In this document: in pieces, positions 3,597 to 16,111 of the stretch
Numbering within the stretch: the first letter of the stretch is position 1
Layout of the letters: every line of letters begins with the position of its first letter
Assembly (NCBI GenBank): GCA_000724175.1
Contig: JPGV01000012.1
Span: forward strand, 62,001 to 126,000
Reading direction: 5' to 3'
Origin: [Candidatus Thermochlorobacteriaceae] bacterium GBChlB
Lineage (GTDB): Bacteria > Bacteroidota > Chlorobiia > Chlorobiales > Thermochlorobacteraceae
Length of the DNA: 64,000 nt
Position numbers and translations under genes: made by a program
Notes under the pieces: generated by a model
Seen by the model: the letters and a program-made list of their open reading frames with translations, nothing else
The model's database searches: none
Told to the model about the DNA's origin: nothing

Positions 3597-4124
3597 CTAT
3601 TTCTCGCCATCTCTCTTTTGTGCTTGGCGCATCAAGGCGTTGAGGTCTTCCAAGAAATCGCGTTCAAAAATTACCAGTTCCGCCATTTGCCGCGCCGAGA
3701 GCACCTCTCGAAACTCTTTGTAATACTTTGGCAGCAGTTCCGACGTGGCTTTACGCGCCTCCAACACTTGCATCACTTTTTTATCAATGTCAGCTTCGCT
3801 GGCATTGGCAAGTTCTGCCTGACGCAGTTCTCGCATCTGCGATTGCACGGTTTCCAAATTTTTTGCAAACTCGTCTTGATACCTGTTGTATCGCGCAAAG
3901 AACTTCACGGATTGGTCTTCCGTGAGTTTGAGTCGGTCGGTGAGTTTCCAAACGCGCAGTTGCCTGATGCGTTCTATAATTTGCCCGCGCCGTTCTTGGC
4001 GCATCTCTTGCAGTCGGTTCATGCGTTCTTGCCGTTGCGGCGCTGGTTGCGCTTGCACAGCAATCGGCGCAACAGAACTTGTAATCGCCAGTATAATTGC
4101 AAGGCTTATCCAATAGCGAGTCAT
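3597..4124 (-). CDS. CpxP/Spy-like periplasmic protein
   Basis: Small exported helical protein (175 aa from the chosen start). An ATG eight codons further upstream is in frame, but the ATG at 4124 has a strong Shine-Dalgarno (GGAGG, 5 bases upstream) and directly begins the signal peptide MTRYWISLAII...VQAQ. The mature part is rich in Arg, Glu, Gln and Leu, with heptad-like LTDRLKLTEDQ and a downstream LSARQMAEL segment. This resembles the paired LTxxQ motifs of the Spy/CpxP/ZraP (LTXXQ) family of periplasmic chaperones and stress sensors. It is the last gene after an ECF sigma factor and its presumed anti-sigma factor, so it could be a periplasmic input or an output of that regulon. The family call rests on composition and motif only. 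Confidence 0.7.
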   Translation of the reverse strand: MTRYWISLAIILAITSSVAPIAVQAQPAPQRQERMNRLQEMRQERRGQIIERIRQLRVWKLTDRLKLTEDQSVKFFARYNRYQDEFAKNLETVQSQMRELRQAELANASEADIDKKVMQVLEARKATSELLPKYYKEFREVLSARQMAELVIFERDFLEDLNALMRQAQKRDGEK

Positions 4125-4168
4125 TGAGTCCTCCAAAAAATTCAACATCGTTAAAAAGTTATTGCTGT

Positions 4169-4828
4169 TCAGAGCGTCGGCAGCAGCGATTTGACATCAT
4201 CGTCCGATAAGATATTGAAATCGCCGTCGTCTGCTGTCGGCAGTTCTTCTTTAAGTTTGTTCAACACGGCAATTTCCTCTTCATCGTTGAGCGACGAGAG
4301 CGAGACTTCAGGCATGAAGCCCGCCGCAAATTGAACTGTCGCCACGCGCGTCGCCAACGTTGGATTTTTTTCATCTTGCGCCTCAGGGTAAGCGCGTTTG
4401 AGCGCAGCGATGTCGCCCGACGCTATATGAAAATCCAATCGAAGCACTCCGTTGAACAGCATTGCGACAATGAGCGCGGCAGCGCAAATGCCCGCCAGCT
4501 GAAACCGACCTTTTGGCTCGAGCAGCCTGCGAAGCCCTGCAAATACACGCTCCATGGGCGTGCGTTGCGCGGCAGCAATGCGCTGTTCCACCTTATCGGC
4601 AAAGTTGGCGAAGTAAAACGGCGGCACGCCTTGTTCCATCTCACTCTGCATCACTTCAGACGCCATTTCGATGCGTTGCATCACACTTCTCATCGCGTCA
4701 TATTCGGCGCGGAACTTGGCATTCGTTGCAATCAATTTTTCAATCTCGACCGCAACGGATTTCGGCACGTTGCCCTTAATGTAATCGGGCAGGTCGGGCA
4801 GATATTTTTCAATCATGTTCATCTTCAT
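4169..4828 (-). CDS. Probable membrane anti-sigma factor
   Basis: 219 aa; no enzyme motif. The N-terminal ~80 residues are soluble and begin with IEKYLPDLPDYIKGN, similar in layout to the cytoplasmic sigma-binding part of anti-sigma factors that count residues to a helix-turn-helix of ~25 aa. One transmembrane segment follows at about 112-128 (LAGICAAALIVAMLF), then a ~90-residue acidic periplasmic tail. Cys/His zinc-binding residues of the zf-HC2 type are not seen, so this would be a non-zinc anti-sigma factor. Its ATG overlaps the stop codon of the upstream sigma factor gene by one base (TGATG), indicating translational coupling; that position is the main reason for the call. Confidence 0.68.
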   Translation of the reverse strand: MKMNMIEKYLPDLPDYIKGNVPKSVAVEIEKLIATNAKFRAEYDAMRSVMQRIEMASEVMQSEMEQGVPPFYFANFADKVEQRIAAAQRTPMERVFAGLRRLLEPKGRFQLAGICAAALIVAMLFNGVLRLDFHIASGDIAALKRAYPEAQDEKNPTLATRVATVQFAAGFMPEVSLSSLNDEEEIAVLNKLKEELPTADDGDFNILSDDDVKSLLPTL

Positions 4829-5388
4829 CAGTGTTGTTTAAGTCGCAGTTTCAAATACTCTTCTATTTTTTTGAAAGCGTGAAAGTAATTCGCCTTTAAG
4901 CCGCCGACGCTTGTGCCGAGCATTTCAGCGATTTCTTCGTAAGCAAGTTCATCGTAGTAGCGCAGCATAAAAACCACTTTCTGTTTTTCGGGCAGCGTGT
5001 CGATGGCTTCCTGAATCAATCGTCGTTGTTCTTCGCGCTCCATTGATTCGTCGGGACGCTCGGCGTCGTCGCTCGGTTCATTGATAAGGTCGTCAATCGG
5101 CGCGGCGCTTCGGACTTTCTGGGCGCGGATGAAATTTATCGTCTCATTGACCGCGATTCGATATATCCATGTAAAAAACTCCGCCTCTTCATTAAACCCC
5201 GAAAGCCCGTTGTGAACTTTAATAAACACGTTTTGTGCAACATCGTCAGCATCGTCATGCGATTTGAGCATTCGTCGACACACCCAATAGACTTTTTCTT
5301 GGTATCGGCGCACCAATTCGGTGAACGCTTTTTCGCCTTGCGAACCGCCTTGCTTAAATCGCGCAATGAGTTCTTTATCGGGCGTCAT
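4828..5388 (-). CDS. rpoE: ECF-type RNA polymerase sigma factor
   Basis: Extracytoplasmic-function sigma-70 factor of 186 aa. Region 2 spans about residues 25-90 (RYQEKVYWVCRRML, DDADDVAQNVFIKV, FTWIYRIAVNETINF) and region 4 about 125-182, with the LPEKQKVVFMLRYY and YEEIAEMLGTSVGGLKA helix-turn-helix. It heads a three-gene minus-strand operon with the presumed anti-sigma factor (stop/start overlap) and a CpxP/Spy-like periplasmic protein, a typical envelope-stress arrangement. The symbol marks the family and does not imply orthology to E. coli RpoE. Confidence 0.93.
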   Translation of the reverse strand: MTPDKELIARFKQGGSQGEKAFTELVRRYQEKVYWVCRRMLKSHDDADDVAQNVFIKVHNGLSGFNEEAEFFTWIYRIAVNETINFIRAQKVRSAAPIDDLINEPSDDAERPDESMEREEQRRLIQEAIDTLPEKQKVVFMLRYYDELAYEEIAEMLGTSVGGLKANYFHAFKKIEEYLKLRLKQH

Positions 5389-5566
5389 CAGAGAGTTTCA
5401 AAAAATTCGCAAGCACGTTTGAGCCTTTATGTGAGCTTTCAAACGACGACCTTAAAATACGATGCTTGCAACACTTTCACAGATTGAACCGTTGCGCTCA
5501 CAAGGGTTGACGCAGCACACTCGAAAAGGTTTAAATTATACGGTGAGGATTTTGCCCAAGGGGTGG

Positions 5567-9076: not shown

Positions 9077-9748
9077 TTGTTTCTCGGGCTGGAAAAGCGT
9101 CGGGAAATCCGTAGCTTGCTTAAACATAAAATCAACTTCCTTATGCCAGATACGCCGTTCAAAGACACTCTCGTTTTTAACGACACTCTTGATGCTAACA
9201 GTTCTTCTGACCATTCGCAGAGCGGCGATGCTTCGCCAGAAACCTCACTTCATGATATTCAAGATGCCTCACGACGCGAGTTTTTGAAAACGCTTGCAAC
9301 GACGGGCGCAGCGCTGGCTTGCACGGCGACGCTCTCGGCGGTGCTTGCCGCGTGCGGTGGTGGCAGCAACCCGACCAATTCAACTACGCCGCCGCCTGCG
9401 ACCGGCGAACAAGAGCGCTTTGCTGCGTCAAGCGTGCCTGCGCTTGCAACTGTTGGCGGCGGCGCACTACGCACATTTGCCAATCGAAACAACGGCAATC
9501 CGGTTTTAATCGTCCGCGTTGCCGCTGGCAACGGCAGCGATGTGTTCAGAGCCATGACCGCGCTCTGCACACACGCGGGCTGCACGGTCGATACGCCCGG
9601 GACAAACGCTTGGACATGTCTTTGCCATGGCTCGCGGTTCAGCATACAGGCGTCAAACTTCGGCGCGGTCGTGAACGGCCCGGCATCGAGACCGCTCCAA
9701 ACATTTCCAACCACGTTTGACGGCACAAACATCATTATCACTTTCTAA
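9077..9748 (+). CDS. Tat-exported Rieske [2Fe-2S] lipoprotein
   Basis: High-potential Rieske protein placed on the outer face of the cytoplasmic membrane (or in the periplasm). Residues 65-71 are SRREFLK, followed by a hydrophobic stretch and a lipobox-like LAAC (Cys93): a twin-arginine lipoprotein signal. A flexible Thr/Pro-rich linker follows. Cluster ligands are visible as CTHAGC (C164, H166) and CLCHGS (C181, H184). C169 and C183 are positioned for the disulfide of bc1/b6f-type Rieske proteins. Start is uncertain: 9077 or the ATG at 9143; both lie upstream of the Tat motif. No cytochrome bc1/b6f genes adjoin it. Instead the next gene, 11 bases downstream, is a four-helix membrane protein with regularly placed histidines, then YceI. 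It is probably the electron-accepting head of a small membrane redox module. Confidence 0.88.
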   Translation: MFLGLEKRREIRSLLKHKINFLMPDTPFKDTLVFNDTLDANSSSDHSQSGDASPETSLHDIQDASRREFLKTLATTGAALACTATLSAVLAACGGGSNPTNSTTPPPATGEQERFAASSVPALATVGGGALRTFANRNNGNPVLIVRVAAGNGSDVFRAMTALCTHAGCTVDTPGTNAWTCLCHGSRFSIQASNFGAVVNGPASRPLQTFPTTFDGTNIIITF

Positions 9749-9759
9749 CGACGACGGCT

Positions 9760-10536
9760 ATGCGGCGATGCTTGCCCTCTTGCGCAGTTGCGCTGAGTTT
9801 TTTTGCAATGTGTCTATGTGCCACAGCGCGTTCCGCCCAAGCGCAATTTACGAGAGACCTCGCGCCGAAATTTTTTGACGCTGTCACCCTCGTTGATTCC
9901 ATCAAAACCGATTCTGCGAGAGCGGACTCGACCACACAGGCTTCCGACGGTCAGGACAGCATTGCCGCAGTTCCGAAACGAAAAGTGAAACTCTTGCCCG
10001 AGAACATCTACCCGCTGACGAACGTCTTTTGGGGCGAATCGGGACTTTTTCGCGGACTTGGCTGGGCGCCGCTTACGCCCGACGCCCGACGCAGCGAGTT
10101 GGACTTTCGCCGTTCACTGCTCTCGACCCACCAAATCGGCGGATTTGTTACTTGGGCGGGCTTGGTAACGACGCTGGTGATGGGGCAAATCGTTTTGAAC
10201 AGCTACAACAACTTGGATTTTGAATCAGCGTTGCGTCTGCGCCCGACACACCAAACCATTGCGACGGCGACATTTGTGTCATATATGCTCACAGGCTTGA
10301 TGTCGATTCTGGCGCCGCCGCCGCTCATTCAGCGCAGTGAGTGGAATACGGTTTCAACGCACCGAGTGTTGTCGTATTTTCACTTTGTCGGAATGCTTGT
10401 TACACCTTACTTGGCGATTCGGGCGTCCGGCAGTCGAGACATCAATGAGATTCGCTCGCTTCGGCAGGCGCATCAAATTGCAGGATATGCAACAGCAGCG
10501 ATTCTTTCGGCGGCGCTGATTGTCGTTACTTTTTGA
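9760..10536 (+). CDS. Four-helix membrane protein, possibly di-heme b561-like
   Basis: 258 aa, no family I can name. A signal peptide (1-29, ending AQAQ) precedes a Ser/Asp/Thr-rich exported linker (about 35-75). Four predicted membrane helices follow at about 124-146, 164-185, 201-221 and 236-257. Each begins with a histidine in a similar context: THQ (H124), THQ (H164), THR (H201, plus H208) and AHQ (H238). With alternating helix direction, H124/H201 would lie on one membrane face and H164/H238 on the other, the layout of a bis-histidine di-heme cytochrome of the b561 type. This is my structural inference; no heme has been shown. It sits between the Rieske lipoprotein (11 bases) and YceI (25 bases), and E. 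coli yceI is also paired with a b561 gene (yceJ). This suggests quinol-linked electron transfer in the envelope. Confidence 0.6.
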   Translation: MRRCLPSCAVALSFFAMCLCATARSAQAQFTRDLAPKFFDAVTLVDSIKTDSARADSTTQASDGQDSIAAVPKRKVKLLPENIYPLTNVFWGESGLFRGLGWAPLTPDARRSELDFRRSLLSTHQIGGFVTWAGLVTTLVMGQIVLNSYNNLDFESALRLRPTHQTIATATFVSYMLTGLMSILAPPPLIQRSEWNTVSTHRVLSYFHFVGMLVTPYLAIRASGSRDINEIRSLRQAHQIAGYATAAILSAALIVVTF

Positions 10537-10561
10537 AACCATTTTGCCAACATACCTAACG

Positions 10562-11122
10562 ATGACATTTATCTGCGCCTACATCTCCCTGTTCTCTTGT
10601 TTGCTCCTCATCGCGCCAAGCCGATTTGCTGCGGGTGAAAAGCTCTCCGCACTCAAAGGCGACTCCAAAATCAGCTACGAACTCTCTCACCCGCTCCATA
10701 AAGTCGAGGCGACCACAAGAGATTTTACCTGTGAGATAGAACTCTCCGAGTCGAAAGAAATTTCATCGGTCAAATTTTCTGCCGATGTAACGACCTTCGA
10801 TAGCGGCAACAGCAACCGCGATTCACATGCGATGGAAGTCATTGACGCAATTTCTTATCCTGATGTCGCGTTTCAAAGCACGGGGATTTCGGCGGACGGT
10901 GATAAGTTGACCGTAACGGGAAACCTGACCTTTCACGGCGTCACGAAGCGAGTGTCATTTAATGCTTCGAGAAAACTTGTCGATGGAAAATTGATTGTCG
11001 AGGGCGCGGCGGCGCTGAGCCTAACGGAGTTTAAAATCGACCGCCCTGCGCTTTTGGCGATTCGTGTCGATGACACGCTCAAAATTTCATTTGTTATGGC
11101 GTTTTCTGTGCCGAGAAATTGA
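10562..11122 (+). CDS. yceI: YceI-family periplasmic protein
   Basis: Lipocalin-like beta-barrel of the YceI family, which binds polyisoprenoid/quinone-like lipids. From the ATG at 10562 it is 186 aa with signal peptide MTFICAYISLFSCLLLIAP. Family features: GDSKISYELSHPLHKVEATT near the mature N terminus, DVTTFDSGNSNRDSHAME (the conserved NxxRDxHM-like segment), YPDVAFQST and NLTFHGVTKRV. An in-frame ATG at 10520 overlaps the end of the preceding gene and is less likely because it puts the signal peptide internally. As third gene of the Rieske / four-helix protein cluster, it may deliver or shield a prenyl quinone. Confidence 0.88.
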   Translation: MTFICAYISLFSCLLLIAPSRFAAGEKLSALKGDSKISYELSHPLHKVEATTRDFTCEIELSESKEISSVKFSADVTTFDSGNSNRDSHAMEVIDAISYPDVAFQSTGISADGDKLTVTGNLTFHGVTKRVSFNASRKLVDGKLIVEGAAALSLTEFKIDRPALLAIRVDDTLKISFVMAFSVPRN

Positions 11123-11144: not shown

Positions 11145-12083
11145 ATGCGTCATTTTGTATCATTTTTTTTGCTCGTCGCCTCGCTTTGCTTGTCTTTACG
11201 GGGCTTGGCGGCGCAAGAGTTGCAATGCATCGTTACCGTCAATCTTGAACGCCTGCAATCCGACGCACGGCTACGCCTGGCGAATTTCTCTCAGGTCGTT
11301 GCCAACTATCTCAACAACTACCGCTGGACCAACTCGACCGAGTTTGAAACCGATGAAGACCGAATTCGGTGCCAGATTCAATTTGAGTTTGTCAGTGCCG
11401 ACATTACAGGCGCTATCCCGCAGTATTCCGCTCGCGTTTTCGTTGGCAGCGGACGGCCAATTTTTCGCACGTTAAAAACCTCGCCCCTACTACGGCTCTT
11501 CGACGGCAGCTTTGATTTTGCCTACAGCGAGCAACAAGGCGTGCTGATTCACAACGAGCAAGTCAATACGCCGCTTGCAAGTTTTTTAGATTACTATGCA
11601 CTCATCATTTTGGGATATGATGCCGATTCTTTCCGGAAAAATAGTGGCACGCCCTATTTTGAACGCGCCTTGCGCATCAAACGGTTGGCGCAAGAACAAG
11701 CAGCACAAAAACGCGGCTGGCAATCGAGCGACAATGCCGGAGACAATCGCTCGGTTTTTGTCGACGAACTCTTAGATGCGCGTTTCTTAAAACTGCGCGA
11801 AGATTTTTTCAATTACCATTACAATGGGTTAGATGAATTTCACAAGAGCGCAGAAGACGCTCGCAAAGAACTCTTAGAAAGCCTGAAAAGCATTGCGGAC
11901 ATTGACGCGCGCTTCCCGCGCAGTTTGGTCGTGCGTCGTTTTTTCGAGGCAAAGGCGGCGGAAATTGCAGATGTGTTCAAAGGCGCGTCGCCCGCAATGA
12001 AACGCGAGTTGTTAGAGGTGCTTAGAAGAGTCGACCCGTCACGCCTGCAACAAACTTACGAACCCGCGCTTGCCTCGCAGTGA
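11145..12083 (+). CDS. porD: DUF4835 protein, PorD-like T9SS component
   Basis: 312 aa from the ATG at 11145, where a clear signal peptide begins (MRHFVSFFLLVASLCLSLRG, ending LAAQ). The mature start LQCIVTVNLERLQSDARL and later FDFAYSEQQGVLIHNEQVNTPLASFLDYYALIILGYDADSF match my memory of DUF4835, which includes PorD, a protein associated with the type IX secretion system. An open frame begins earlier (11064) inside yceI, but lacks a signal peptide. It follows yceI by 22 bases on the same strand. Two T9SS substrates occur elsewhere in the window, consistent with a functional system. The link to the Rieske module upstream is positional only. Confidence 0.72.
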   Translation: MRHFVSFFLLVASLCLSLRGLAAQELQCIVTVNLERLQSDARLRLANFSQVVANYLNNYRWTNSTEFETDEDRIRCQIQFEFVSADITGAIPQYSARVFVGSGRPIFRTLKTSPLLRLFDGSFDFAYSEQQGVLIHNEQVNTPLASFLDYYALIILGYDADSFRKNSGTPYFERALRIKRLAQEQAAQKRGWQSSDNAGDNRSVFVDELLDARFLKLREDFFNYHYNGLDEFHKSAEDARKELLESLKSIADIDARFPRSLVVRRFFEAKAAEIADVFKGASPAMKRELLEVLRRVDPSRLQQTYEPALASQ

Positions 12084-12155: not shown

Positions 12156-14300
12156 CTAATTCTCGCCTAATTGCTTGACCAAATCTTCGGGACGAATCGG
12201 CAGTTTTCGGACACGCACGCCCGTCGCCGCGAAAATTGCGTTGCAGATTGCAGGTGCAGCCGGCGGCACCGCTGGCTCGCCCGTTCCCGTTGGCGCTTCT
12301 GCGCTTGGCACAAAGTGGATTTCTACTTTCGGCATCTCGTTTATGCGAATGGAATCGTAGTTGTCGAAGTTCGCTTGTTCGACTCGACCATCTTTAATCG
12401 TAATCGCGCGTTTGAACGTGCAAGAAACGCCGTCGGCAATGCCGCCTTCGAGTTGCGCTTCCGCGCCGTCGGGATTGACGACAATGCCGCAATCGTAAGC
12501 GCATACGACGCGCAAAACTTTCACCTCGCCCGTTTTTTTATCGACCGACACTTCTGCTACTTCCGCCGCATAACTTTGGAATGACTTATGACAAGCAATG
12601 CCGCGATAGACGCCTTGCGGCAAGGGGTTTCCCCAGCCGGCTTTTTCAGCAGCAAGTTCCAGCACAGCTTTCAAGCGCGCGTCGGTCAAGAGTTGTTTGC
12701 GGTATTCAAATGGGTCTTTGCCTGCAAGATGTGCAAGTTCATCGATGAAGCCTTCGGTGATAAACGCATTTTGCGAACTTCCCACGCTGCGCCACGCTCC
12801 TGTCGGCACGCCCGGGTTGTGCATCACCCACTCGATATGCAGGTTCGGAATTTTATATGGCAAGTTCGATGCGCCTTCGACTGCCGCGCCCTCGACATTG
12901 TCTTTTGGGTTAGATTTGTTGAGTGCATCACCGACGATTTTCAGCGAGAGCGCCGTCGGCAGACCGTCCTCGCCAAGTGCCGCGTTGAACACATTGTACG
13001 TTGACGGGCGATATAAGTCGTGCTGAATGTCGTCTTCACGCGACCAGACAATTTTGACGGGCTGCTTGACGGCTTTCGAGAGGTGAATTGCTTCTTCGAT
13101 GTAATCGGGATAGAGTTTTCTGCCGAAGCCGCCGCCGAGAAATGTGGTATGCACAATGACTTTGTCTTTCGATGTTCCGGTCATATCCGACGCCATGTTT
13201 TGCACGCGGTCAGGCACTTGGGTCGACGCCCAAATCTCGACGCTGCCGTCGCGCACGTCGGCAACTGCCGCCATCGGCTCCATCGGCGCATGAGCCAAAT
13301 ACGGCACTTCGTAAACGGCATTTGTAATTTTCTTCTTCGTCGACGCAAGTTCTTTTTCCACATTGCCGACGCTTTTGGCAACTGCGCCTTTGGTTTCCGC
13401 AAGTTTTTTACGTTCGGCTAAAATGCTGTCGCTGCTTTGTTTGGCGAAGTCGCCCTCGTCCCATGTGATTTTGAGTTGAGCGCGACCTTGCATCGCCGTC
13501 CAGTAATCGCTTGCAAGCACGGCAACGCCGCTTGGAATTTGAACGACATGTTTGACGCCTTTGATTTTTTTCGCTGCGCTTGCCTCAAACGCTTTCACTT
13601 TGCCACCGAAGACAGGGCAACGCTCGACAACTGCCACCAGCATATTCGGCGCTTTTACGTCCATGCCGTAAATCGCCTTGCCGCTAATTTTTTCAGGCGT
13701 GTCTAATTTCATCACGCGCTTGCCGATGAGTTTGAAGTCCTTTGGCTCTTTCAATTTTGGATATTGCGGAACTGCCATCGTTGCGGCTTTGGCGGCGAGT
13801 TCTCCGTATGAAAGTTTCTTGCCGCTTGCGTGAATGACCATACCGTTTTCGGTTCGACAGTCCGACGCGGGGACGCTCCATGTTTGCGCGGCGGCGGCAA
13901 CAAGCATTTCGCGCGCCGACGCGCCCGCTTTGCGCAGCGTCTCCCAAGCCGTTCTAACGCTGGCGCTGCCGCCCGTTGTCATTCTGCCGTATTTCGAGTG
14001 CGCGTCGCCTTGCTCGGCTTTGACTTTACTCCAATCGGCGTCGAGTTCTTCGGCGAGAATCATCGGCAATGCAGTTCTGACGCCTTGTCCCATCTCGACT
14101 TTGCCAATCGTTACGGTTACGCCGCCACTTGTGTCAATACGAAGCCATGCGTTTGGTTCGAAGGGTGTGGCTACGGTTTCGGCGGCGAAGGCGTCCAATC
14201 GATGTTCGGAAATCAAGTGAAAGCCCAATGCCAAGCCTGCCCCTGCTGCACCGACAAGGGCGATAAATTCTCTGCGGTTTAAATTTTGTCTCTCGCTCAT
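12156..14300 (-). CDS. Molybdenum hydroxylase large subunit (IorB-like)
   Basis: Molybdopterin-binding subunit of the xanthine dehydrogenase superfamily, closest in layout to isoquinoline 1-oxidoreductase beta / periplasmic aldehyde dehydrogenases. At 714 aa its N terminus is a twin-arginine signal ([15 protein letters not shown]), so the holoenzyme should be folded with its cofactor in the cytoplasm and then exported by Tat. Motifs seen: [41 protein letters not shown] and, near the C terminus, GTGEPAVPP, whose Glu is the catalytic base of the family. No cytochrome c domain is fused to it. It overlaps the 2Fe-2S subunit gene by 4 bases (ATGA). The divergent xdhC and mocA-like genes next door probably supply and insert the cytosine or sulfurated cofactor. 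Substrate unknown. Confidence 0.9.
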
Positions 14301-14770
14301 TTTGCACCTCCGGTCATTTCTTTGGCAGCTTCATGAATGGCAAGCCGAACCCGTTGATATGTTCCGCAGCGACACAAGACGCCGCTCATTGCCTCGTCGA
14401 TGTCCATGTCGGTTGGATTTTTCTTTTCGTTGAGCAGCGCCGCCGCCGCCATCAGTTGCCCTGATTGGCAGTATCCGCATTGTGGCACATCGTATTTCAT
14501 CCATGCGCGTTGTAGCGCGTGCGAGTTGTCCGACGAGAGACCTTCGACCGTTGTAATTTTTGATTTGCCTACCATTTCAATCGGGCGACTGCACGACTTT
14601 GCAGCTTCGCCGTCGATAAGCACCGTGCAGGCGCCGCAGTACCCTTTGCCACAGCCAAACTTTGTGCCGGTCATGCCCAAGAGATCGCGCATTGCCCAAA
14701 GAAGCGGCATATCGGGCGAGGCATCGACCTTATATTTTTTGTTGTTAATGTCAAGCGTAAATGAAGCCAT
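14297..14770 (-). CDS. 2Fe-2S subunit of molybdenum hydroxylase (IorA-like)
   Basis: Small electron-transfer subunit, 157 aa, with two [2Fe-2S] clusters. The plant-ferredoxin-type site uses C40, C45, C48 and C60 (GCGKGYCGACTV...SC). The second site uses C98, C101, C133 and C135 (CGYC...CRC) in the helical domain. It has no export signal of its own, so it must ride through Tat with the large subunit. First gene of the minus-strand pair. An inverted repeat and a TATAAA box lie upstream (see 14814-14835). Confidence 0.93.
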   Translation of the reverse strand: MASFTLDINNKKYKVDASPDMPLLWAMRDLLGMTGTKFGCGKGYCGACTVLIDGEAAKSCSRPIEMVGKSKITTVEGLSSDNSHALQRAWMKYDVPQCGYCQSGQLMAAAALLNEKKNPTDMDIDEAMSGVLCRCGTYQRVRLAIHEAAKEMTGGAK

Positions 14771-14813
14771 GGCGTCTCTCCGCGTTGATGTTTGATAGAA
14801 GTCAAGTAGAATT

Positions 14814-14835
14814 TTTATACCCGCCTAAGTTAGGC
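14814..14835 (-). promoter_or_regulatory. Palindrome and -10-like box upstream of hydroxylase
   Basis: GCCTAA-G-TTAGGC (14823-14835) is a perfect 6+1+6 inverted repeat lying just upstream of TATAAA on the minus strand (14814-14819). The repeat would fall in the promoter spacer, as an operator often does. It is in the 174-base divergent region between the hydroxylase and xdhC genes. No regulator gene adjoins. Confidence 0.4.
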
Positions 14836-14944
14836 AGATTTGTCTAAAATGCCGCGCTCATTTGAACGCTAAAAAGTTTGCTTTGTCCTCTTTATACTTG
14901 TGCGCTCGTTTTAGCTTGAATTGTCATCGTTAAACTCACTTTTC

Positions 14945-16111
14945 ATGAAAGAAATTCGCGCCATCATTGATTTGTTCCGCGCCGCCGAAGCGCGCGGCGC
15001 AACATCTGCGCTTGTTACGCTTGTTAAAGTCAAGGGGTCAAGTTACCGTCGCGCGGGCGCGCGAATGCTCGTTACGGACGATGGGCAACGCGCGGGCGCA
15101 GTCTCCGGCGGTTGCTTGGAAGACGACATTCAACGCAAAGCCTTGCTTGCCATTTCCGTCAATCGCTCGTCGCTCATCGTTTATGACTCGACCGACGAGG
15201 ACGAGTTGAACGCCGACGATATTCGCTACGGCGTCGGGCTTGGCTGTAACGGCGTTGTGTATGTTCTCATCGAGCCAATCACGCAAACTGCTGGCAGGCT
15301 TCATCTTGACGCACTTGCCAAATTTGTTCATCACCCGAAATCGCAAGTGTTGGCAATCGTTTTCGGCGCAGAAGGAAACTTAACATCCGATGTCGGAAAC
15401 ATCCTCACATTCAACGACCTTGCGTCTCACAGCTACATTCTTTCGTCCGACCTTGGGCGCGTTGTTGAGACGGATGCTGAAGCCTGCTTTCATGCAAGGC
15501 GCTCGGCGACAAAACTTTATGAATTTTCGGATGGGCGTGCTGAAGTCTTTTTTGAATATCTCGCGCCGCCGGTGTCGCTTGCTATTTTCGGTGCAGGCTA
15601 CGACGCGATTCCCTTAGCCGCTTTTGCCAAAGAACTCGGCTGGACTGTTACCGTTGTCGATGGCAGACCGTCTTATGTTTCCAAATCGCGCTTCCCTTCC
15701 GCCGATGCGCTTGTCGTCGCCAAACACGATGCACTTGCACAAGTAAGCGAGCAAATACAATTTGCTGACGTCGCTGTTGTTATGTCGCACAATTATATCT
15801 ATGACCTTGCCGTGCTTCATTTGCTTGCTCATCTACCGATGAAATATGTCGGCGTTTTAGGACCAAAGAAGCGGACAGACAAACTCTTTGCCGAACTTCG
15901 GAGCCACGGCGTTGAGATTTCAGACGACTTCTTGAACCGCGTGTATGCGCCCATGGGGTTGGATATTGGAGCGGAACTGCCCGATGAAATCGCCTTGTCG
16001 GTCTTGTCGGAAATTCGCGCTGTGATATCGGGACGCAGTGGCGGGCACTTGCGCCTGCGCCGCGCGCCGATTCACGACTATGTGCAAGAAATTCAACCCT
16101 CACTCAAATGA
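14945..16111 (+). CDS. xdhC: XdhC/CoxI-family molybdenum hydroxylase maturation factor
   Basis: Protein that binds the molybdenum cofactor, protects it and promotes its sulfuration before insertion into xanthine-dehydrogenase-type enzymes. 388 aa from the ATG at 14945 (a start eight codons upstream is possible). N-terminal XdhC/CoxI domain: VKGSSYRRAGARMLV, AVSGGCLEDDI, YGVGLGCNGVVYVLIEP. C-terminal Rossmann-like domain from about residue 205: LAIFGAGYDAIPLAAFAKEL, VVMSHNYIYDLAVL, YVGVLGPKKRT. Divergent from the hydroxylase genes and overlapping the next gene by 4 bases (ATGA), so expression of cofactor maturation genes is coupled. Confidence 0.92.
   Translation: MKEIRAIIDLFRAAEARGATSALVTLVKVKGSSYRRAGARMLVTDDGQRAGAVSGGCLEDDIQRKALLAISVNRSSLIVYDSTDEDELNADDIRYGVGLGCNGVVYVLIEPITQTAGRLHLDALAKFVHHPKSQVLAIVFGAEGNLTSDVGNILTFNDLASHSYILSSDLGRVVETDAEACFHARRSATKLYEFSDGRAEVFFEYLAPPVSLAIFGAGYDAIPLAAFAKELGWTVTVVDGRPSYVSKSRFPSADALVVAKHDALAQVSEQIQFADVAVVMSHNYIYDLAVLHLLAHLPMKYVGVLGPKKRTDKLFAELRSHGVEISDDFLNRVYAPMGLDIGAELPDEIALSVLSEIRAVISGRSGGHLRLRRAPIHDYVQEIQPSLK

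Follow-up and report, generated by a model that had tools for sequence, protein, structure and literature searches.

The nearest described system to the locus reported here is LcoA-BcnA, corresponding to YceJ-YceI in E. coli. It pairs a YceI lipocalin with a cytochrome b561, and Burkholderia lacking it shows more lipid peroxidation in its membranes (PMC9113575). Many Proteobacteria carry the two genes side by side, alphaproteobacteria have them as a fusion, a YceI homologue was found to bind ubiquinone-8, and a Rieske protein is absent from the main text on this system (PMC9113575). A second point of reference is the superoxide oxidase CybB, which gathers superoxide at a positively charged patch facing the periplasm and reduces quinone at the opposite side (PMC11869295).

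Here, we analysed a stretch of 64,000 nucleotides (the window) on contig C12 of the 3.05 Mb genome of [Candidatus Thermochlorobacteriaceae] bacterium GBChlB. As the first-pass annotation had stated, it contains three successive plus-strand genes, separated by 11 and 25 bases. They are followed by porD as a fourth gene, which that annotation had not mentioned and which starts 22 bases after the YceI gene and lies in the same apparent transcription unit:

9143..9748, plus strand: Rieske [2Fe-2S] lipoprotein, Tat-exported (PF00355, TAT signal, ligand motif, lipobox LAAC)
9760..10536, plus strand: b561-like four-helix membrane protein, unnamed, 258 aa, with an N-terminal signal peptide
10129..10131, plus strand: codon of H124 (helix 1, periplasmic-side site; 57/57 homologues; aligns with H201)
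10249..10251, plus strand: codon of H164 (helix 2, cytoplasmic-side site; 47/57 homologues; aligns with H238)
10360..10362, plus strand: codon of H201 (helix 3, periplasmic-side site; 57/57 homologues)
10381..10383, plus strand: codon of H208 (helix 3, two turns below H201, on the conserved face; 57/57 homologues)
10471..10473, plus strand: codon of H238 (helix 4, cytoplasmic-side site; 56/57 homologues)
10562..11122, plus strand: YceI-family periplasmic lipocalin of the HPxH subfamily (H43, H46; PF04264)
11145..12083, plus strand: PorD (DUF4835), type IX secretion component (NCBIfam T9SS_PorD, E=1.5e-69)

The Rieske reading frame has an alternative TTG start at 9077; ATG 9143 is likelier and retains the SRREFLK Tat motif together with the LAAC lipobox. 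Beside the module, positions 12156-16111 hold a minus-strand molybdopterin oxidoreductase pair (a PF20256/PF02738 large subunit and a 2Fe-2S small subunit) and a plus-strand gene resembling the XdhC-type maturation factor of such enzymes.

The middle gene encodes what is annotated as a 'hypothetical protein'. It has no NCBIfam match, and its family is unnamed in the libraries searched. A b561-like nature, as proposed from the letters of the sequence, is supported by Pfam matches that are weak and recur across the family: of 33 relatives, 16 match PF03188 (Cytochrom_B561; best E=7.8e-7) and 15 match PF01292 (best E=2e-6), with further weak hits to Ferric_reduct. The profile search thus returned b561-family matches for about half of the members, while the window protein itself stayed below threshold for PF03188 (E=0.019, 15.7-16.9 bits, cut-off 23). 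For PF01292, the window protein had no match and the best relative reached 28.1 bits, under the cut-off of 30.1. Scanned singly, 5 of 10 members passed the PF03188 cut-off (24.5-29.9 bits), each over part of the profile only, the match spanning just two of its helices. Besides, a PF03188 search of 148 genomes of the phylum recovered chiefly members of the four-helix family, just below the cut-off.

The claimed four-helix architecture was borne out by AF2, which, given 33 sequences, returned a confident fold with a mean pLDDT of 95.5 on a 184-residue core and helices at residues 107-150, 154-184, 197-224 and 228-257; the model from only eight sequences was poor (pLDDT 72). Neither model gave a significant Foldseek match in the PDB, where a sequence search with the middle protein likewise found nothing. 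Signal peptides lie upstream of the four helices, and we kept the adopted membrane orientation for this reason. The positive-inside rule weakly opposes this topology, with more Arg/Lys in the periplasmic segments than in the cytoplasmic loops.

A profile of helices 1-2 aligned with one of helices 3-4 in hhalign at a probability of 97.3% (E 2.4e-11), placing H124 on H201 and H164 on H238. Twelve column shuffles gave probabilities of no more than 4.7% and the reversed profile 1%, and YceJ/CybB-type b561 proteins of bacteria, whose two halves were compared in the same way, reached at most 10%. This indicates a tandem duplication by which the two histidine pairs are related to each other. Together with the similar depth of the partners within their helices, the repeat symmetry supports the pairing of H124 with H201 and of H164 with H238 that the first-pass annotation had suggested. 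At a rise of 1.5 A for every residue above the cytoplasmic turns, which yields estimates rather than coordinate distances, H164 and H238 would both lie at 18 A, H208 at 27 A, H201 at 37.5 A and H124 at 42 A, leaving the pairs about 22 A apart. Each of the five histidines deviates by no more than about 50 degrees from its helix's conserved face, as computed with the histidines excluded.

The four histidines, one at the beginning of each repeat helix, occupy the positions given in the first-pass annotation, which had missed the invariant H208. Among 57 homologues, H124, H201 and H208 are present in every member and H238 in 56; H164, however, is retained in 47 and replaced in the remaining ten (nine by Lys, one by Gln). 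Accordingly, not every member could have a bis-His site on its cytoplasmic side, which counts in part against the first-pass reading. The periplasmic half is also the better conserved of the two, with a mean column entropy of 1.47 versus 2.08 bits in the cytoplasmic half, and near-invariant residues, including R98, R110, E113 and R117, concentrate there. One genome (G255; locus L065, 5890-6576) carries a second four-helix copy in which both H164 and H238 are Gln. It has neither YceI nor Rieske gene beside it and adjoins genes for a predicted TonB-type receptor and a PepSY_TM protein; this degenerate copy may have been re-used in iron uptake.

The third gene was confirmed as YceI (PF04264, E=1.4e-21, 77.9 bits against a cut-off of 23.7) with an N-terminal hydrophobic signal, and its best solved relative is E. 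coli YceI (5.6e-12). All 54 of 54 module YceI proteins carry an HPxH motif (H43, H46), whereas E. coli YceI and the host's second YceI (contig C46) have the equivalent of H43 and not that of H46.

To follow the gene order, we searched 395 Bacteroidota/Chlorobiota genomes with a profile built from eight proteins of the window's own family; a single-sequence search of genome contigs with the four-helix protein gave no match, and profiles were required. The four-helix gene was present in 8 of 9 genomes of the window's family, all eight of them showing the order Rieske, four-helix, YceI, porD, and was detected in 32 of the 395 genomes, one of which (G300) contributed a fragment only and was left out. 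Around the 33 copies of the gene in this phylum sample, which come from ten families, YceI is a neighbour 32 times and Rieske 28 times, the latter lying upstream in most families and downstream in two (f10 and f29). In a second set of 31 named GTDB loci, mainly from Ignavibacteria and related MAGs, YceI was adjacent in 30 and Rieske in 14; one of these loci (L092) is labelled Fibrobacteria, possibly through a binning error. Pooled into 57 distinct four-helix proteins, the data place YceI at 55 loci and Rieske at 35, leaving 22 with no Rieske gene. From these figures, the strict core appears to be the four-helix gene with YceI, and Rieske a frequent third member. The observation of a compact module was thus confirmed and is stronger than first stated, the order being kept across many families, but Rieske lies before or after the pair or is missing, and this variation in gene order also counts in part against the first-pass reading. 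A tandem pair of Rieske-domain genes precedes the four-helix gene in one genome (G133; L059, 6843-8276). At a locus that lacks Rieske (L082, 6155-8600), a Tat-signal DUF362 protein and a polyferredoxin are encoded downstream of the pair, and these are a possible alternative electron partner. Co-occurrence with a terminal oxidase (PF00115) was dropped as a functional clue, given that 375 of 391 sampled genomes (96%) were positive.

The first gene is, as proposed, that of a Tat-exported Rieske lipoprotein with bc1-type ligands and disulfide cysteines (CTHAGC...CLCHGS; PF00355, E=4.4e-9), whose closest solved relatives are the Rieske domains of b6f and bc1 complexes. The [2Fe-2S] ligand motif occurs in every module Rieske protein (n=36), and nearly all have a lipobox Cys after an RR- or RK-type signal. 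The bc1-type disulfide pair, on the other hand, is found in 14 of the 36, which belong to the window's family and to the f7/f38 group, while both cysteines are missing in 22, a tally in which six 'CTHA/CPHA' cases were assigned by eye. In bc1 complexes, Rieske proteins have a Ser beside the second His ligand and a Tyr that raises the redox potential; the Ser is retained in 31 of 36 module proteins, and most have Phe at the Tyr position. No bc1/b6f-type cytochrome b gene adjoins the module, in agreement with the first-pass annotation, and matches to PF00033 occur only on contigs C9 and C27. These contigs hold two further Rieske/cytochrome b loci, and the genome has two other Rieske genes besides. 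The module is thus not the only quinol-Rieske route available to this organism.

How, then, does the module relate to systems already described? With LcoA-BcnA it shares a b561-type membrane protein that stands beside a YceI lipocalin as a strict pair (55 of 57 loci here), and the YceI proteins are homologous (E=5.6e-12 to that of E. coli). It differs in that its membrane protein belongs to another, unnamed family with the histidines on different helices, has a signal peptide and an additional N-terminal segment, and is accompanied by a Rieske lipoprotein, none being reported for LcoA-BcnA. An hhalign comparison of the four-helix family with ten YceJ/CybB relatives gave a probability of 4% (E 0.01), that is, no detectable homology; those proteins have invariant H18, H52, H94, H145, H159 and H166 (YceJ numbering), of which several lie close to the last helix. 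Like CybB (PF01292), the module protein is a small four-helix protein, putatively of the di-heme type, and has a conserved positive patch on the periplasmic side. Eukaryotic-type cytochromes b561 (PF03188) have one heme-ligand His per helix, paired 1/3 and 2/4, in a four-helix core of two pseudo-repeats. The module protein likewise consists of a repeat and in the window has all four histidines, aligned by that repeat, and may share this layout; it departs from these cytochromes in the additional invariant H208 and the non-universal H164. Finally, its Rieske protein is of the same family as that of bc1/b6f complexes, and in the window has both disulfide cysteines, but it is an optional lipoprotein with no cytochrome b or c1/f beside it, and the disulfide is usually missing in other lineages. 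In a literature search covering a minority of subscription journals, YceI, Rieske and b561 were not found together, and the titles and abstract openings of reports mentioning YceI and Rieske pointed to none on such a cluster; in the literature so covered, the three-gene set and its membrane family are undescribed.

Judged from sequence, the Rieske, four-helix and YceI proteins form a module conserved in the Bacteroidota/Chlorobiota phylum, which is probably a redox system of the cell envelope. For this module we infer heme binding, quinone chemistry, a direction of electron flow and a role in defence, and we favour an envelope redox/defence function akin to that of LcoA, at a probability of roughly 50%. 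The four-helix protein would be a cytochrome of the b type that exchanges electrons with menaquinone. Its H124/H201 pair would bind a heme on the periplasmic side, and in the majority of homologues H164/H238 would bind a second one on the cytoplasmic side. YceI may ferry quinone or another isoprenoid lipid across the periplasm, with the Rieske lipoprotein as a putative electron relay at the periplasmic face. Most likely, as with LcoA-BcnA, a quinone-type antioxidant would be held reduced, or electrons of radicals would be gathered at the periplasmic membrane surface, either of which could lessen oxidative damage to envelope lipids.

We favour this LcoA-like function because the gene order is conserved, YceI is near-constant, the membrane protein has an internal repeat, conserved histidines and b561-family matches, and a b561+YceI pair has experimental support in lipid-peroxide defence (PMC9113575). 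In addition, the periplasmic arginines resemble the positive patch at which CybB collects superoxide (PMC11869295). In Fibrella sp. ES10-3-2-2 the module is plasmid-borne (L123, CP155472.1, locus 3634-5404), in the order Rieske, 'hypothetical protein' of the four-helix family, YceI, two hypotheticals, Dps and catalase, and this proximity to Dps and catalase is a further reason. What speaks against an LcoA-like function is the lack of profile homology to LcoA/YceJ/CybB and of a significant PDB match, along with the loss of H164 in 10 of 57 homologues and an oxidative-stress context seen on one plasmid.

Alternatively, the module could be a minimal counterpart of the bc1 complex. The b561-like protein would then oxidise menaquinol at the periplasmic side and hand one electron to the Rieske protein and on to a periplasmic cytochrome c, an unlikely course of events in our view; the remainder of the scheme, with the other electron passing through the hemes and YceI delivering or holding the quinone, we consider unlikely to the same degree. 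The adjacency of Rieske to the four-helix gene at 35 of 57 loci fits such a scheme, as do the bc1-type ligands, disulfide and b6f/bc1 relatives of the window's Rieske protein, and in one lineage (L049) a cytochrome-c-like T9SS-cargo protein (weak PF13442) is encoded downstream of the module. However, 22 of 57 loci do without Rieske, 22 of 36 Rieske proteins do without the disulfide pair, the strict partner is YceI rather than Rieske, the genome already holds two bc-type Rieske/cytochrome b loci, and the loss of H164 would interrupt a two-heme relay in some members. The quinol-oxidising module with a Rieske acceptor that had been envisaged from the window alone thus found no specific support: the strict core of four-helix protein and YceI corresponds to the b561-YceI pair of LcoA-BcnA, Rieske is optional and mostly lacks its disulfide, and two bc complexes are already there. 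That the module is an undescribed kind of small quinol:acceptor oxidoreductase, in which a duplicated two-heme four-helix cytochrome passes menaquinol electrons to Rieske in the periplasm without a bc1/b6f cytochrome b, YceI being the quinone carrier, seems decidedly unlikely.

It is rather unlikely that the four-helix protein is an oxidase of superoxide or another radical like CybB, passing the electrons of radicals to quinone with Rieske and YceI as accessories. Its four-helix size would fit, and arginines are conserved on the periplasmic side even though the signal peptide puts this segment outside, comparable to the CybB patch (PMC11869295). Yet a profile relationship with CybB/YceJ is absent, and while these arginines could collect superoxide as in CybB, they could also serve partner docking; docking or the binding of phospholipid heads would suit them equally well. 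Very unlikely is a role in ferric or other metal reduction or in cofactor insertion, with Rieske as a metal- or redox-sensing lipoprotein and no quinone system involved: the degenerate L065 paralogue with its TonB-type and PepSY_TM neighbours and the weak Ferric_reduct hits point that way, but iron-uptake genes are not consistent at normal loci, where YceI is nearly constant. A link to type IX secretion through the downstream porD gene is scarcely conceivable and was rejected as family-specific, because porD, although the next gene in 8 of 8 genomes of the window's family that have the module, is beside it in no other family examined, which makes this a local joining of operons.

YceI appears to have become paired with b561-type membrane proteins of two different families, which argues that this pair is a real functional unit. 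The Rieske partner suggests where the electrons may go, and so offers a handle on the role of YceI lipocalins and their cytochromes. The module also points to a conserved, hitherto unannotated membrane protein family, and it offers Rieske proteins that stand apart from bc complexes a route that can be tested.
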